Of a stretch of DNA of 64,000 nucleotides, positions 35,575-57,900 are shown one piece after another. Location: the NCBI RefSeq assembly GCF_014191255.1, contig NZ_JACHWH010000002.1, forward strand, positions 496,001-560,000, given 5' to 3'. The translations under genes and the position numbers were made by a program. The DNA is from Amycolatopsis bartoniae (GTDB lineage: Bacteria > Actinomycetota > Actinomycetes > Mycobacteriales > Pseudonocardiaceae). Below the pieces are notes generated by a model. The model searched no databases. It was not told the DNA's origin and saw only the letters and a list, made by a program, of their open reading frames with translations. Within the stretch, counting starts at the first letter, position 1. Each line of letters begins with the position of its first letter.

Positions 35575-36381
35575 ATGGGCACCGCGATCGTCGTGATCGT
35601 GCTCCTCCTCGTCATCATCGGCGGCGTGGCGTACTTCGCCCGTTCGCAGGGGCAGAACCGCCAGCGCCAGCTGGACGACGCCAAGGCCGACGCGCGACGG
35701 CTGGTCGAGCGGCTCGGCGGCCAGGTGCTCAACCTGACCGGCACCGACGAGGCCTCCAAACAGGCGCTCGCCGACGCGTCGGAGCGCTACACCGCCGCCG
35801 GCTCGCAGCTGGACCAGGCCCGCACCGTCGAGCAGGCCAGGCTGGTCAAGGAGACCGCGCTCGAAGGGCTCTACTACGTCCGCGCCGCGCGCACGGCGAT
35901 GGGCATGGACCCGGGCCCGCAGCTGCCCGAGGAGCGCGAGCGCGAGCGCGCCGGCAAGGTGAGCGAGCACCGCAGGGTGGACGTCGAGGGCCAGACGTAC
36001 GAGGCGTCGCCGGAGCCGGGCAACAACACGCCGTACTACTACCCCGGCGGCCGCGTCGCGGGGCGGCCCGTGCCGCAGGGCTGGTACAGCGAGCCGTGGT
36101 GGAAGACGGCGCTGGTCGCGGGCGCGTGGGGGCTCGGTTCGGTCCTGCTGTTCGACGCGATGTTCTCCGGCATGAGCGGCGTCTCCAGCGCGGCCGCGTG
36201 GGAGTCCGGTTACGACGCCGGGCAGGAGGACGCCTTCGCCGACCAGGGCGACATGGGCGACGGCGGGGACTTCGACGGCGACGCGGCCGGTGACTTCGAC
36301 GGCGGCGGTTTCGACGGCGGCGGCGACTTCGGTGGCGGCGACTTCAACGACTTCGGCGGCGGGGACTTCGGCGACTTCTGA
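35575..36381 (+). CDS. Membrane protein with acidic Gly/Phe-rich tail
   Basis: A 268-residue protein. It has an N-terminal transmembrane helix (residues 2-22, IVVIVLLLVIIGGVAYF), a charged helical region (about 25-110: QRQLDDAKADARRLVERLGG), a Tyr/Pro segment (NNTPYYYPGGR), a second hydrophobic stretch (about 175-195, LVAGAWGLGSVLLFDAMF), and a C-terminal low-complexity tail of GDF/GGGDF units ending in Phe. It probably sits at the membrane as a scaffold, but function is unknown. The start ATG 35575 lies 103 bp from the divergent oxidoreductase start. Confidence 0.82.
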   Translation: MGTAIVVIVLLLVIIGGVAYFARSQGQNRQRQLDDAKADARRLVERLGGQVLNLTGTDEASKQALADASERYTAAGSQLDQARTVEQARLVKETALEGLYYVRAARTAMGMDPGPQLPEERERERAGKVSEHRRVDVEGQTYEASPEPGNNTPYYYPGGRVAGRPVPQGWYSEPWWKTALVAGAWGLGSVLLFDAMFSGMSGVSSAAAWESGYDAGQEDAFADQGDMGDGGDFDGDAAGDFDGGGFDGGGDFGGGDFNDFGGGDFGDF

Positions 36382-41727: not shown

Positions 41728-42207
41728 TCAGGCCGGGGCGTGCCCCGCCTGGTCGGCGAGCATGCGCAGGCCGGAGACCAGGCCGCCGATGAGGTCGCCC
41801 TCCTTGAACGAGGCGACCATGCTCATCACGGCGAGCTTCGCGGCGCGGTCGGGCAGCCGCGGGAACGCCTCGGCGCCGGTGACGACCTCGACCACGCGCT
41901 CGCCGGGCGACACCGCGATCAGAACCGAGCGGGCCGCGGTCTCGCCGATGGAGGCGTGCAGCTTCTCCGCCGACTCCCGCGTGTCACCGCCCAGGTCACC
42001 CAGGTAGACGCTGAAGTCGATGCCGGTCTCCCGGCTCGCCAGGGTCAGCGCCTCGTCCAGACGGGCCAGCTGGGGCACGGTGAAGGGCACGGACGGCTTG
42101 GCCGGTTCGTACATCCGGGCCACCGAGCGCCGTCCGGTGGAGGTAACCCCTACTCCGAACTCCGCCTCGCCGGACTCGTTCTGCTGGACCAGCTCACCAG
42201 CTGCCAC
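41728..42207 (-). CDS. DUF5130 family protein (TPM-like fold)
   Basis: A 159-residue protein. The core (residues about 40-150: FTVPQLARLDEALTLASRET, IDFSVYLGDLG, RSVLIAVSPGERVVEVVTG, AVMSMVASFKEGDLIGGLVSGLRML) resembles the TPM-type fold, and the family is annotated DUF5130 (Rv2468c-like). GTG 42207 is preferred over GTG 42213 since GGGAGG is properly spaced only for the former. It overlaps the 3' end of the ctaJ-like gene by 14 bp. Adjacency to a cytochrome-oxidase subunit suggests a respiratory-supercomplex link, which is inference. Confidence 0.82.
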   Translation of the reverse strand: MAAGELVQQNESGEAEFGVGVTSTGRRSVARMYEPAKPSVPFTVPQLARLDEALTLASRETGIDFSVYLGDLGGDTRESAEKLHASIGETAARSVLIAVSPGERVVEVVTGAEAFPRLPDRAAKLAVMSMVASFKEGDLIGGLVSGLRMLADQAGHAPA

Positions 42208-42433
42208 GGGCACCTCCCACTGCCGTCCCCGGCGCCTCGCCGGGATTCACCTGCCGATGCGCGCCGATGCCCTCGGGGTTGCCGCTCCACCACATCGGGG
42301 GGTACTCCCAGGGCTGGCCCGGACGGTAACGCGGGGTCCCGGCGAACTTCGAGCGCAGCGTCAGCAACGCGACCACGCCGTAGATGGCCGCCGGGATCAG
42401 CGCGAAGACCAGGATTGTCTCGACGATGCTCAC
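42194..42433 (-). CDS. ctaJ: CtaJ-like small subunit of aa3-type cytochrome oxidase
   Basis: A 79-residue protein: one transmembrane helix (SIVETILVFALIPAAIYGVVALL, shown in part) followed by SKFAGTPRYRPGQPWEYPPMWW and a polar tail. This is the pattern of the small actinobacterial aa3 oxidase subunit CtaJ identified in the mycobacterial CIII-CIV supercomplex, as I recall it. The GTG start is at 42433. It overlaps the DUF5130 gene, indicating coupling. The 277-bp gap upstream (42434-42710) separates it from the divergent GTRVT-repeat gene. Confidence 0.75.
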   Translation of the reverse strand: MSIVETILVFALIPAAIYGVVALLTLRSKFAGTPRYRPGQPWEYPPMWWSGNPEGIGAHRQVNPGEAPGTAVGGARGSW

Positions 42434-42710
42434 GAGGAGGAACCTTAGCCGATCGCCTCTGAACCCACTGGGGAGCGTCAAGACCACTCGTCCCGTCCGG
42501 CCCACCGTCCGCCGTGTGCCGAGTTCCGGTTCACACAATGAGCCGAAAGACCCTTGCGCGAAAGATGGCAGCTCACCGTACGGGCGGCCGCACTCATCGC
42601 AATTCGGGTTGTTCCTGAGGGAAAATCCTCGTAGCTTTTTCACCTGTACGGGCCTTGCGCCTCGGTCCCCTTCCCGCAACGTAACGCACTGGGTCCCCGG
42701 AGGACATGTC

Positions 42711-43025
42711 ATGAACCTCGCCGTTACCCCCGCTCAGCCCAACACCGACTACGCTCCGTCACTTTTCGGCGCCAACGACGGACGCGGCACCCGCGTCACG
42801 CGGGGTACCCGGGTGACCGCAGGCACTCGCGTGACGCGCGGTACCCGTGTCACCAGGGGCACCCGCGTCACGCGTGGCACGCGAGTCACCGCCGGCACGC
42901 GCGTCACCCGCGGTACCCGGGTCACCCGCGGCACCCGCGTGACCGCCGGTACCCGCGTCACCCGCGGCACCAGGGTGACGCGCGGCACCCGCGTCACCGC
43001 CGGCACGCGCGTCACCGCTTCCTGA
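42711..43025 (+). CDS. Tandem GTRVT(R/A) hexapeptide-repeat protein, function unknown
   Basis: A 104-residue protein: a 25-residue N-terminus (MNLAVTPAQPNTDYAPSLFG then ANDGR), 13 uninterrupted hexapeptides GTRVT(R/A) in residues 26-103, and a final Ser. The sixth residues read R A R R R A R R A R R A A, giving mostly an RRA triplet, i.e. an 18-residue period. No Cys, signal peptide or membrane helix is present, and the protein is extremely basic. The strand is clear: CGGAGGA (42698-42704) precedes ATG 42711, and the repeats differ almost only at synonymous third bases (Arg as CGC, CGG, CGT, CGA and AGG), so the amino-acid sequence is under selection. I do not recognise a family; a left-handed beta-helix or similar solenoid is plausible. 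Confidence 0.85.
   Translation: MNLAVTPAQPNTDYAPSLFGANDGRGTRVTRGTRVTAGTRVTRGTRVTRGTRVTRGTRVTAGTRVTRGTRVTRGTRVTAGTRVTRGTRVTRGTRVTAGTRVTAS
42786..43019 (+). repeat. 13 x 18-bp coding repeat (hexapeptide GTRVTR/A)
   Basis: Thirteen in-phase 18-bp units encode GTRVT(R/A). Units differ from each other mainly at third codon positions. A 54-bp higher-order unit (R, R, A at position six) is repeated about three times. Confidence 0.92.
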
Positions 43026-43053
43026 CGAAGCCTCCGGACTCCGGGCACCAGAA

Positions 43054-43084
43054 CGCCCCGGCCGTCATTCCGACGACCGGGGCG
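43054..43084. terminator. Terminator between the repeat protein and the HNH gene
   Basis: CGCCCCGG (43054-43061) and CCGGGGCG (43077-43084) form an 8-bp stem with a 15-nt loop between two convergent genes. Confidence 0.75.
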
Positions 43085-43102
43085 AAGGTGTGTGCCGAGG
43101 AA

Positions 43103-43861
43103 CTACGCGGCGACCCCGAGGTACGGGCGCCACAGGGGGTCGGCTTCCCCGCTGTGCACGAGCAGCCGCCAGTGCGGGCCGTGCGGCGCCGTCGGCACCA
43201 CGCGCAGGTGCCAGCCCAGCTCGGACAGCAGCCGGTCGGCCTTGCGGTGGTTGCACTTGGCGCAGCAGGCCACGCAGTTCGTCCACGAGTGGGGGCCGCC
43301 CCTGCTGCGCGGGATGACGTGGTCGATGGTTTCGGCCCGGCCGCCGCAGTAGGCGCAGCGGTACCGGTCGCGGTGCATGAGCCCGGCCCGGGTGAGCGGG
43401 ACCTGGGCCCGGTAGGGCACGCGGACGTAGGTGGACAGCCGGATCACGGACGGCACCGGCAGCGACACCGTGGCCGCGTGCAGCGTCAGCCCGGCGGGAT
43501 CGCCGTGCACCACCTCCGCCTTGCCGCACATCACCAGCACCACGGCCCGCCGCAGCGGCAGCGCCGTCAGCGGCTCGAACGTGGCGTTGAGCAGAAGCAC
43601 CCGCCGCCGTCCCCACCCGGGGGCCGTGCCGGCCGCCGGATCCCGGCCTCTACGCTGTCCCGGCGGACGGGCTCCGCGCCCTCCGCCACGCGCAGGTGGC
43701 CCACTCGGGTGGTGACCGCCGGCTGCGGCTCCACCCGGATAGGCACACAGGGCTACCTCCGGCGCCTGTCCCGCCACGAACTCGTGGTCGGCGGCGCCGA
43801 GGGGGATCGGTTGTCGGTCTGGCACTCGACCACCTCCACCGGTGCGGTCATAGTCGACCAC
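43103..43861 (-). CDS. HNH endonuclease-family protein (Rv2469c-like)
   Basis: A 252-residue reading frame whose conserved part is residues about 85-252: RRVLLLNATFEPLTALPLRRA, then RYRCAYCGGRAETIDHVIPR (first CxxC plus the DH of the HNH motif), NCVACCAKCNHRKADRLL (second Cys pair, N and H), and a C-terminal HWRLLVHSG. The Cys residues bind structural zinc. It may cut DNA, but no target is evident. The start is uncertain: GTG 43861 gives a low-complexity Gly/Pro/Arg N-terminus that may not all be translated. The position beside ctaJ and the truncated haemoglobin matches mycobacterial order. Confidence 0.85.
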   Translation of the reverse strand: MVDYDRTGGGGRVPDRQPIPLGAADHEFVAGQAPEVALCAYPGGAAAGGHHPSGPPARGGGRGARPPGQRRGRDPAAGTAPGWGRRRVLLLNATFEPLTALPLRRAVVLVMCGKAEVVHGDPAGLTLHAATVSLPVPSVIRLSTYVRVPYRAQVPLTRAGLMHRDRYRCAYCGGRAETIDHVIPRSRGGPHSWTNCVACCAKCNHRKADRLLSELGWHLRVVPTAPHGPHWRLLVHSGEADPLWRPYLGVAA

Positions 43862-54262: not shown

Positions 54263-54942
54263 TTCAGGCAACTCTCCACTGAGCTTTTGATCACGCGATC
54301 ACGCCGAACAGCCTCACCATAGTGCGGCCGTCCGGCGAGGTTCGCCCCACAGCCGCACACGATGCTGGTCCCATAGTGGTACGGAAAGATCGGCCAAGGG
54401 GTGGAGGGCGGGGTTCCTTAAGGCACTGTTGAGGTGCAGGCCGCCGTCCGGTCCCCGCCGGGTGCGGCGGGTACGGCGGGTGCGCCGGGTACGACAGCAG
54501 CGCCGGGTGCGACTGGCGCGGCGGGCACGGCGGGCACACCGGGTACGACCGGCACGCCGGGGCACGCCGGGGCACGCCGGGCACGACCGGCACGACCGGC
54601 ACGCCGGGCACGCCGGGCACGGCGGGTGCAGCGGGCACGGCGGGTGCAGCGGGCACGGCGGGTGCGGCGGGCACGGCGGGTGCGGCGGGCACGCCGGGTG
54701 CGGCGGGCACGCCGGGTGCGGCTGCTGTCTGGATGTCGGCGGGTCGGGCGGGTCGGCGGAACTACCCCGCGCGGGTGGTGTCGGGAGCGGTGGGCGGGCA
54801 AGCCTGGCCTTGTGGCACCAGCACCCAGCCAACCCGCCGCGGCCCCCGCCACGGTCTCCGCCGCACCAAACCCACACAGGTCCCGATAGCTGCCACCCGC
54901 GGCCTCCATCGTGGCGCAGACCCGGGCGTCTCGCCTGTGGCG
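54263..54942. other. 680-bp region without a supported intact gene
   Basis: It contains the glutamate dehydrogenase promoter region (54263-54430), a GC minisatellite with collagen-like coding potential (54440-54730) and about 200 bp up to the 3' end of the TPR-repeat gene in which I see nothing certain. Confidence 0.6.
54440..54730 (+). repeat. GC-rich 9-bp minisatellite with broken collagen-like Gly-X-Y frame
   Basis: About 290 bp is built of 9-bp units such as GGGTGCGGC, GGGCACGGC and GGCACGCCG. Read from about 54434 in one plus frame it gives Gly every third residue (GAAGTAGAPGTTAAPGATG, then GTAGTPGTTGTPG). Near 54560 the phase changes by one base, and a different plus frame continues the pattern (GTTGTPGTPGTAGAAGTAG onward to about 54730). 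The two halves cannot be read as one protein, so this is a decayed or length-variable collagen-like sequence. Confidence 0.75.
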
Positions 54943-57900
54943 TCAGCGGTCTCCACCGCGATGGCGCCCGTTCGGCCGCTCACCGTTGCGGCTGTGGCCG
55001 TTCACCGGGCGGCGCTCGTCCGAGCCCTGGTTGCCCAGGCGCTTCACCAAGGCCGCGGCGCTGGATGTGCCCGCCTGGTGCTCCGCGAGGGCGCGCGCCA
55101 GGAGGTCAGCGAGTCCCGCGTCGGGAGGCAGGTCGTCGTCCAGCGGGGAGGAGCCGTTGTACTCGCTGCGGAACGGCTCGCCCAGCCCCTCGTCCTCGAA
55201 CGCAGGAGTGCTGGTGAAGTGGGTCTCGGACGTGGAAGAGGCAGGCTCCCCGCTGAAGTCCTCGAACGGCTCCAGCGACGGCGGCAGCCGCAACCGCGGC
55301 AACCACGGATCGTTGACGACCAACGGGCGGTCCTCCCTCTCCGCAGCCGCCCCGGATTCCCCAGCCGAACTCTCGTCGGACTCTCGATGCCGCGAGGAGT
55401 CCAGCTCCGAAGGCGAGTCCGGCTCAGCCGCACCGCCGCGCAGAGGCGAGCCGACGGCGGAGAGCTCGGAAGCCTCACCCTGGTGGGTGGACTCGCGCTC
55501 CGCGTCTCCGTCCTGCAGGCCGAAGTCAGCCTCGGAAAACGGCTCTGCGTCCTTGAAATCCGGCCCAGTCCCGACAGCCTCACTGTCCCGACGACCAGCC
55601 CCAGCCTCGGCGAACGAGTCCCCGTCCTGCTGCTTTGGCGCGCTCCCAAGCCCGGCCTGGGCAGACGACCCGTGCCGAGCCCCCTCAGCGCGAGCCGAGC
55701 CGACCCCACCATGCCGACCGGCGGCGGCCGATCCGTCAAGCCCGGCCTGCTCGCCACCGTCCGAGACGGCGCCCGCCGACACCTCCTCCGGCTCGGCCTC
55801 ACCGCCCCGCCGCGACTCAGTTTCCCGAGTAGCCGCCACACCGCCCGCGGTCTCTCGCGACTCGTCCGCCGCCCGGCGACGGCCGCCGCCCGAGCCCGCC
55901 GAAATCCCCAGCCGGTCCAGCACGGATCGTGCCGCGACGGAACCGTGTTCGGAGTCGTGCCGAGTAGTCACCTTCGGCTGCTCGTCGAGCGCCTCGTCAG
56001 CGGAGGAAGCGCTTTCCGCCTTGCGCTCGAACGCCAGCGAGACCCGCGGCGCGGGTTCGTCAGCAGGCGGAGGTGCGAGCGGCAGGTCCGCCACCGCCGG
56101 TTCGTCCACCGGCACGGGCGCCAGCCGGATCTCGGGCTTTGCCGCGGTCGGCTGATCGTCCGCCGCCCCGGCCTCCGCCGAGTTCGCGCTCCGGCCCGAC
56201 TCCGGCTCACCGAGCGAACCCGCACCCCGGACCTTCGGCCCGGACCCCGATGTCTCCGAGGCGCCTTGCCAGTTCTCCGGACCCGACGCCGGCTCTTCCG
56301 CCAAACCGGCACGCCGAGCTCCGCGCCCCAGTTCCGACTCCTCCACCCAATCCGCGCGCCGGACTCCCTGTCCGAGATCCGACTCCACCACCCGATCCGC
56401 GCGCCGGACTCCCTGTCCGAGATCCGACTCCACCACCCGATCCGCGCGCCGGACTCCCTGTCCGAGATCCGACTCCACCGCGCGATCCGCGCGCCGGGGT
56501 GCCCGCCCGAGATCAGCCTCCTCCGCGGCATCGGCCTGCCGGGCTCCCCGCCCGAGTCCGGTTCCCTCCGTTGAAGCCGCGCGCCGGGCCTTCTGTCCCG
56601 GTCCCGTCTCCTCCACGCGATCCGCGCGCCGCGTTCCCTGCCCCAGCCCCAGCTCTTCCGCTCGGCTCGCGCGCCGCGCCCGACCCAGCCCCGGCTCTTC
56701 CTCTTCCGCTCGACCCGCGTGCCGCGTCGCCCGCCCCAGTCCCGGCTCTTCCGCCGAGGCCGCGAACCCCTCATCTCGCCCTGGGCGCGAGTCCTCTGCC
56801 GAAACCGAGCGCCGGTTCTCCTGACCCAGTCCCAGCTCTTCCGCCGAGCGCTGAACCGACTCGGCCTCTGTCCCGACCAGCCGCTCGTCAGCCCGACGGC
56901 GTCCGCCGGCCGACTCCGCGCCCGTCGAGCGCTGCGGCTCCTCCGCTCGCCGTTTCCCGGGGGTTTCGTCCGAGCGCTGGCCGGCGCCCCGCCGAGGCGG
57001 AAGCCATTGCCGCGTCTCGTCGTTCGCGTTGCGGTCCTCCGGCACCACGACGCGCGGGATGATCATGGTGTGCTCGGCGGCATCGGGCTCCGGCTGAACC
57101 GGCCTGCCCGGCGCGGACGGCTGTTCCGCACGCCGCCTGCCCGACTCCGCGGCCGGATGCACCACCACATGCCCGTTCCGCCCCGAACCGGCGCGCTTCG
57201 TCTCGGCAGCAGGGCTCACCTCGACAGCCTCATGCGCAGTCATGCCTTCGGCGGACTTCGCGTCGGCGCCGAGCACCTCGTCGAGGTCCAACGTCGCGTG
57301 CCCGCCGTTGCCGAACTCCCCGGACAGCAAGCCCATCGCCTGCCGACGAGCCCGCATGTGCAGGTGCTCGGCCGCACGACTGTGGTGCAGGCATTCGATC
57401 GCGTCCGGCGTCCGTCCCAGCCGTTCCTCGACGTGCGCCAGCTCCGCCCACAGCCGCGAAGTCAAGGCGTGCAACCCGTGCCGCTCGGTGCTGTGTACCG
57501 CGTCGCGCAACGTCACTGCGGCCGCTTCCACCGATCCTGCGGGCAGCAGGATCCGCGTCGCGATCGCCATCCGGAGCCAGCCCAGCGGTGCGATCGAAGC
57601 CGCTCGCTCGGGCTCCGTCAACGTGGACTCCGCCAGCTCCGTGGCGACCTCCGTGTCGCCGCGGTCCAGCAGCGAGCACACCAAGTGCAGGACCAACCGC
57701 ACGCGCACAACCCCGCCGTCGCAGTCCGGGTCGTCCAGCTGCTCCAGCAGGCCGAGCCCGGTCCGTGCGGCGTCGGCAGCACCCATGACGTCGCCGTGGC
57801 GACGCCGGTGCGCCGACATCGCCACCCGCACGAGCGCTCGGGCCAGCAACCTGTCGTCGCCGTCGAGGTCATCGTCCGAGCCACACAAGCGGTCCGCCTC

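Follow-up and report, generated by a model that had tools for sequence, protein, structure and literature searches.

Within a 64,000-nucleotide stretch of the Amycolatopsis bartoniae genome (the window, whose first letter is position 1 throughout), a forward-strand coding sequence at 42711..43025 specifies a 104-residue repeat protein, in which a weakly conserved 25-residue leader (42711..42785) precedes 13 tandem GTRVT[R/A] units of 18 bp each (42786..43019). A first-pass annotation made from the letters alone had described both the protein and its ribosome-binding site; translation and a tandem-repeat scan confirmed the former, and GGAGGA, matching at six of six positions, lies at 42699..42704 (+). 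As for the terminator claimed alongside them, a strong terminator-like hairpin lies 3' of the stop codon at about 43054..43084 (+), between the repeat gene and a convergent HNH-domain gene, with the RNA fold of 43026-43110 reaching -40.9 kcal/mol, yet this hairpin is missing from a scan for hairpins with a T-run. The sixth residue of the successive units reads RARRRARRARRAA (eight R, five A), the C-terminus is VTAS, and the protein is strongly basic, as are most members of the family described below (computed isoelectric point about 12, net charge up to +80). Because no signal peptide is apparent we take the protein to be cytosolic, and we tentatively assign it to the tandem beta-strand-repeat type, a placement that we hold with rather less than even confidence. 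A protein search of the genome matched at this locus only, no paralogous array was seen in 15 sampled 20-kb stretches of the same genome plus the window, and tblastn returned no plasmid match at 1e-5. The sole other site in the genome with DNA similarity to the array is a gene whose product, an HU-like DNA-binding protein, ends in a Thr/Arg-rich tail of TGTR type (L002, 1331-2044, minus strand); judged by its sequence, this second match is chance similarity to that tail.

Comparison of the units with one another and with their orthologs indicated strong constraint on the encoded peptide. Pairwise comparison of the 13 units over their first five codons gave 206 synonymous and 0 nonsynonymous differences, and every departure from the consensus unit was synonymous (22/22; about 3e-11 if random), with 11 distinct 15-mers among the 13 units. 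In two genus ortholog groups of 10 and 9 sequences, the ratio of nonsynonymous to synonymous differences (pN/pS, as uncorrected proportions, with units paired by position over the first eight units) was 0.042 and 0.018 at unit positions 1-5, while position 6 was relaxed in both groups and the leader gave 1.22 and 0.79, with faint preferences at T3, T6, P7, Q9, T14 and S16 among 43 proteins. These values uphold the earlier description of an invariant peptide over diverged synonymous sites, and the match of the protein in 19/19 genomes of the genus searched, its own included, agrees with the claim that the array is old and selected as protein. The proposed check on the nonsynonymous-to-synonymous ratio across repeats likewise came out far from one (0.02-0.04), which favours a real protein. 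On the evidence of these sequences, the open reading frame (ORF) is a real protein that is selected at the protein level.

A coding minisatellite, whether neutral or selfish, or a locus at which a DNA or RNA element counts and the protein does not, would suit the rapid change in copy number and in the lineage-specific repeat word, but the wholly synonymous unit changes, the low unit pN/pS and the positional stability of the units already contradict such a reading for the protein, and we regard it as extremely improbable. In four pairs of close species, third positions of unit i differed from those of unit i by 0.16, 0.24, 0.20 and 0.31, as against 0.54-0.56 between units within one array, which disfavours minisatellite homogenisation; the contrast is weak for the more distant pairs of the window protein itself, where orthologous units of three relatives differed by 0.35, 0.45 and 0.47 against 0.50. 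Since unit i resembles unit i across close species, the arrays have not been freshly homogenised and the copies are held by selection. Coding on the reverse strand (a VTRVPR frame) was ruled out, given the invariant forward peptide with its conserved upstream element, ribosome-binding site and start codon, and an RNA gene was rejected after Rfam yielded only two microRNA models, both far under their cut-offs.

Beyond the window, we surveyed 131 distinct ORFs, each the frame with the most units from an ATG 20-125 nt below that upstream element and each with at least two core matches, a set that is selected for units, leaves out element-less members (L063) and is non-independent, with many Amycolatopsis sequences. 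The invariant of the family is the pentapeptide [GS][TVI]R[VI][TSHNE] (GTRVT, GVRIS, SVRIT, GTRIT, GVRIH and others), whose central residue is Arg in 2037 of the 2050 units counted and Lys in none, a count that takes units whose other positions fit and so leans toward intact ones. Spacers are between 1 and more than 10 residues long, and an array holds anything from 2 to 61 units; the unit spacing is often 6, 8 or 9 residues, may exceed 10, and is 8-12 residues in members from other genera. The shortest member is a 31-residue ORF with four GVRIN units (L089), and ORFs of 49 and 93 residues hold three and two units, respectively (L050 and L092), while the longest arrays have 61 units (L205) and at least 60 units (L078, where the locus end cuts the array). 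Because spacing, word and unit number all vary across the family, its common feature is the pentapeptide and not an 18-residue coil. Collectively, these comparisons show that the pentapeptide units are kept copy by copy through purifying selection in the orthologs tested, and that spacers, leader and copy number drift.

Such a coil, as a left-handed parallel beta-helix (LbH) with an exact 18-residue turn, had been proposed in the first-pass annotation from an R-R-A rhythm at position 6. All units of the window protein are indeed hexapeptides, weak matches to LbH proteins exist, and across 58 distinct arrays the non-R residues at position 6 recur at lag 3 (z 7.4), but lag 4 is raised too (z 2.5), and R occurs in 154 runs of length 2, 67 of length 1 and 5 of length 3 or more, so that the pattern appears closer to single or paired R than to strict R-R-A. 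The rhythm is therefore partial in the window protein and not strict across orthologs, and the reported lack of Cys holds for the window protein but not for many orthologs, which carry Cys or Met at this position. The wider spacing in other genera and the members with two to four units also tell against the coil as a general explanation, which we consider very improbable. A structure comparison covering 112 chains placed no LbH chain among the 50 matches listed, a result that is no evidence against an LbH fold.

The strong basicity of the window protein and of most members, together with the near-invariant central Arg, would fit a polycation that binds nucleic acid or another polyanion through bulk charge, in the manner of a nucleoid protein or a polyphosphate binder. 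Net charge among the 131 ORFs nevertheless spans -10 to +80 and is at or below 0 in six of them, all SVRIT-type, and Lys never stands at the unit centre, contrary to what a need for bulk charge would predict. Polyanion binding, which the first-pass annotation had suggested, is thus a weak general explanation when it rests on bulk charge, and we judge it improbable. The same annotation had raised a leader-core precursor, in which many cores would be excised and perhaps modified, as in a ribosomally synthesised and post-translationally modified peptide (RiPP) or a signal peptide. A 25-residue leader in 75/131 members, constant cores and variable spacers and copy number are what such a precursor would show, but the leader is as weakly constrained as its pN/pS indicates, the spacer is a single residue in hexapeptide members, and 14 neighbours from 33.5-54.3 kb that were submitted to Pfam, a subset of the ORFs of that interval, gave no sign of a RiPP maturase, a processing protease or a peptide exporter, though an enzyme may lie elsewhere. 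One of the 14 is pepN, an M1 peptidase that we judged to be an ordinary neighbour. A multi-copy precursor accordingly appears distinctly improbable.

The two flanking genes were as first described. The divergent neighbour is ctaJ (42194..42433, minus strand; NF050118, 1.5e-28; its start at 42433 is assumed from a GTG codon), and the convergent one is the HNH-domain gene (43103..43861, minus strand; PF01844 and PF14279), whose HNH region is weakly like those of IscB and Cas9, under cut-offs. Using the HNH gene as anchor, we surveyed 46 genomes, one for each of 45 further genera of the family and a second for one of these genera; the HNH protein was matched in 46/46 of these genomes and a repeat ORF occupied the ctaJ-HNH junction in 39/46, which answers the suggested check for the ORF in related Pseudonocardiaceae. 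The dominant word of the 39 junction genes was GTRVT in 15, GVRIS in 9, SVRIT in 5, GVRVT, GVRIH and GTRIT in 2 each, and GVRVN, GVRIE, GIRVT and GVRIN in one each. Filled junctions with both edges located measured 455-1263 bp, and of the seven repeat-less junctions five showed a short gap of 54-133 bp between the ctaJ and HNH matches, with ctaJ not found near the HNH match at the other two (L069 and L088). In other families, ctaJ was recognised next to the HNH gene on the expected side in 2/17 loci, separated from it by a gap of 63 bp at L239 and one of 676 bp at L251. The latter gap, in family f11, holds an unrelated ORF, so that the junction can host other genes.

Of 106 confirmed loci the 80 best were kept, and among these the relatives were almost all Pseudonocardiaceae, under the titles Amycolatopsis, Prauserella, Saccharomonospora, Kibdelosporangium, Actinokineospora, Actinophytocola, Haloechinothrix, Qaidamihabitans and Actinosynnema, together with an unplaced Actinomycetes metagenome-assembled genome and one record titled Rhodococcus rhodnii NRRL B-16535 (L193). 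That record carries a typical GTRVT gene with its element and represents either a mislabelled entry or a transfer. Another search gave matches in 185/297 genomes, a figure that includes weak matches which may be chance. In a tree of the HNH protein, three of the empty junctions group next to the outgroup and another three fall away from it, which suggests that the repeat gene was gained within the lineage and later lost in places, a history that is indicative only, as the tree is midpoint-rooted on a long and probably non-orthologous row (L069).

Upstream of the repeat gene, alignment of 48 upstream regions and genome searches identified a near-invariant element, TTTCACCTGTACGGGCCTTGC, at 42638..42658 (+), with TTTCACCTGTAYGGNYCTTGC common to all 48 almost invariantly. 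The start codon lies 49-54 nt downstream of the element in 130/131 ORFs and 32 nt downstream in one, and the element is probably a start-site region or 5' untranslated region, or an operator. A 17-mer from it, CTTTTTCACCTGTACGG, occurs once per genome in 5/5 genomes when up to two mismatches are allowed. At the same tolerance the 21-mer was found in 66/79 genomes of the family versus 2/318 genomes of other families of the order, and in both of the latter (G303 and G344) the match lies far from the HNH gene; with at most one mismatch, a sample of the class gave 2/3 versus 0/391. Some family genomes that lack a match to the element also lack the gene (for example G053 and G059), and in those that have the gene the element is more diverged (G050 and G079) or unrecognisable (G041/L063). 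Immediately upstream lie TAGCTT at 42632..42637 (+; TANNTT in many relatives), identified by eye, and, 17 nt from it, TTGTTC at 42609..42614 (+; CTTGTC here in many relatives), in which two T columns are conserved in 37/48 and 29/48 of the aligned regions. We treat these hexamers as putative -10 and -35 sequences; a consensus promoter scan reported no promoter in the 42609..42637 region. Reading frames across the upstream DNA (FFTCTGLA and FHLYG) were ruled out as coding, given that the frame differs between loci and the DNA is constant. The segment upstream of the element, at 42560-42632, is also similar in many GTRVT-type genomes (GTTGCAA, CGTACGG, CTCGTAG) and is possibly the divergent ctaJ promoter.

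We also noted a recurrent C-terminus, with AA ending 75/131 and LAA ending 50/131 of the ORFs, compared with 8/161 and 1/161 of background ORFs (frames of at least 150 residues from the sampled stretches of the same genome and the window that passed a GC filter, and not annotated genes). Among the junction genes the corresponding counts were 17/39 and 11/39. Encoded termini such as SEYALAA, NDFALAA and GDFALAA resemble SsrA tags ending RDFALAA, REFALAA and GDFALAA, and all ten transfer-messenger RNA tags of Pseudonocardiaceae examined end in ALAA; unlike such tags, the tails of the repeat proteins are gene-encoded and not added by trans-translation, and the window protein has none. One published account describes recognition of a C-terminal ALAA by ClpX or ClpA (PMC3985003). 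By analogy, we infer that members with an LAA or AA tail may be degraded by ClpXP.

Considering these features together, we tentatively favour self-stacking beta-strands that would display an Arg ladder, be produced under a promoter of their own and often be degradable by ClpXP, a reading to which we assign less than an even chance. Each unit would form a short strand of its own, its two beta-branched residues facing inward and the Arg and a polar residue facing outward, and the units would stack on one another as a solenoid or cross-beta rod, possibly between chains too, leaving the Arg ladder exposed. Strands would have to match their stacking neighbours, so that the copies of one array would carry one word. 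Through its guanidinium groups the rod could attach to a polymer or surface that is anionic, or it could serve as a scaffold. Where a member has an LAA or AA tail, ClpXP could keep its level low or transient. We prefer self-stacking as the simpler explanation because each array has one dominant word and its copies do not drift individually. Weighing against it, members with two to four units fit an array of linear motifs better, unless chains co-assemble. An AlphaFold2 model of the window protein (mean predicted local distance difference test score 64, predicted template modelling score 0.49) is too weak to decide the fold. The bolder extension, a family-wide self-assembling polymer in which a five-residue strand word builds an Arg-ladder rod under a locus-specific promoter or RNA element, with tail-driven disassembly by ClpXP in many members and, since strands would have to match one another, whole-array word switching between lineages, we regard as unlikely.

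In a multivalent array of linear motifs, the pentapeptide would instead dock a single partner in the cytosol, for instance through strand addition, with the repeats giving avidity and the spacers acting as free linkers. Constraint that is strong on the pentapeptide only, spacers free in length and composition, the wide range of copy number and the 31-residue member are all consistent with such docking, and we consider it a possibility of some substance, if on balance doubtful; its corollary, that words differ between lineages owing to a changed partner, is similarly doubtful. With 13 or more copies standing in for one another, selection on any one of them should be relaxed, yet every copy is near-invariant, and no partner is known, the search for co-varying genes having been confined to the neighbours. 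The word is conserved in every copy, its surroundings drift and it changes as a set between genera, so that nature offers a clean test of whether tandem repeats are constrained by stacking on themselves or by a partner. The promoter element and the SsrA-like tails suggest that cells make the protein under a switch of its own and that many species probably remove it quickly.

Other repeats occur in the window. Beside a glutamate dehydrogenase gene, 54459-54722 carries about 14.6 tandem copies of an 18-bp repeat, and several frames there hold long repetitive ORFs; 45-bp and 51-bp arrays, with RAPDSLSEIRLHHPI repeats in one frame, lie at 56333-56764; and a 268-residue ORF that Pfam did not match at 1e-5 carries tandem repeats of 15-33 bp at its 3' end (35575-36381).

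The host family is a major antibiotic-producing one, and the family libraries searched hold no match to the window protein, in that Pfam, NCBIfam, PHROGs and PADLOC returned no hit over cut-off or of known function. A defence or phage origin was set aside, as PADLOC gave no match and one PHROG of unknown function appeared at an E-value of 0.0072. Among the open-access papers listed for GTRVT-type words, the element core or the topic, no description was seen, subscription papers and preprints being outside the scope; five papers that contain the short strings bear titles from unrelated fields. Pentapeptide-repeat proteins such as MfpA, Qnr and AlbG are built on an A(D/N)LXX repeat, which is absent here, the window unit being GTRVTX, and their Pfam model gave no match at E<=1. 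MfpA-type proteins are acidic DNA mimics, in contrast to the strongly basic window protein. The VgrG beta-prism DUF2345 scored 85.4 bits against an SVRIT-type member (L075; cut-off 30.7), and GVRIS-type L067 and GTRIT-type L058 reached 28.1 and 20.8 bits, under that cut-off; no match was seen at E<=1 for the window protein, and no VgrG head was seen. Because 19 other families also match L075, some over their own cut-offs, this match may reflect periodicity alone. The hexapeptide LbH proteins, including DapD and the gamma-carbonic-anhydrase-like proteins, share six-residue units with an aliphatic residue at every sixth position. No Hexapep model in Pfam matched the window protein at E<=1, and its NCBIfam matches to LbH enzymes reached 13-21 bits against cut-offs of 160-441. 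Repeat units of LbH proteins are degenerate; the GTRVT family, by contrast, has near-identical units, lacks a transferase domain and does not keep the six-residue spacing, which is uninterrupted in the window protein but not in many family members. Taken together, these comparisons describe a lineage-restricted family for which we found no description and which we could place in no known family, and whose fold may prove to be a variant of a known beta-helix.
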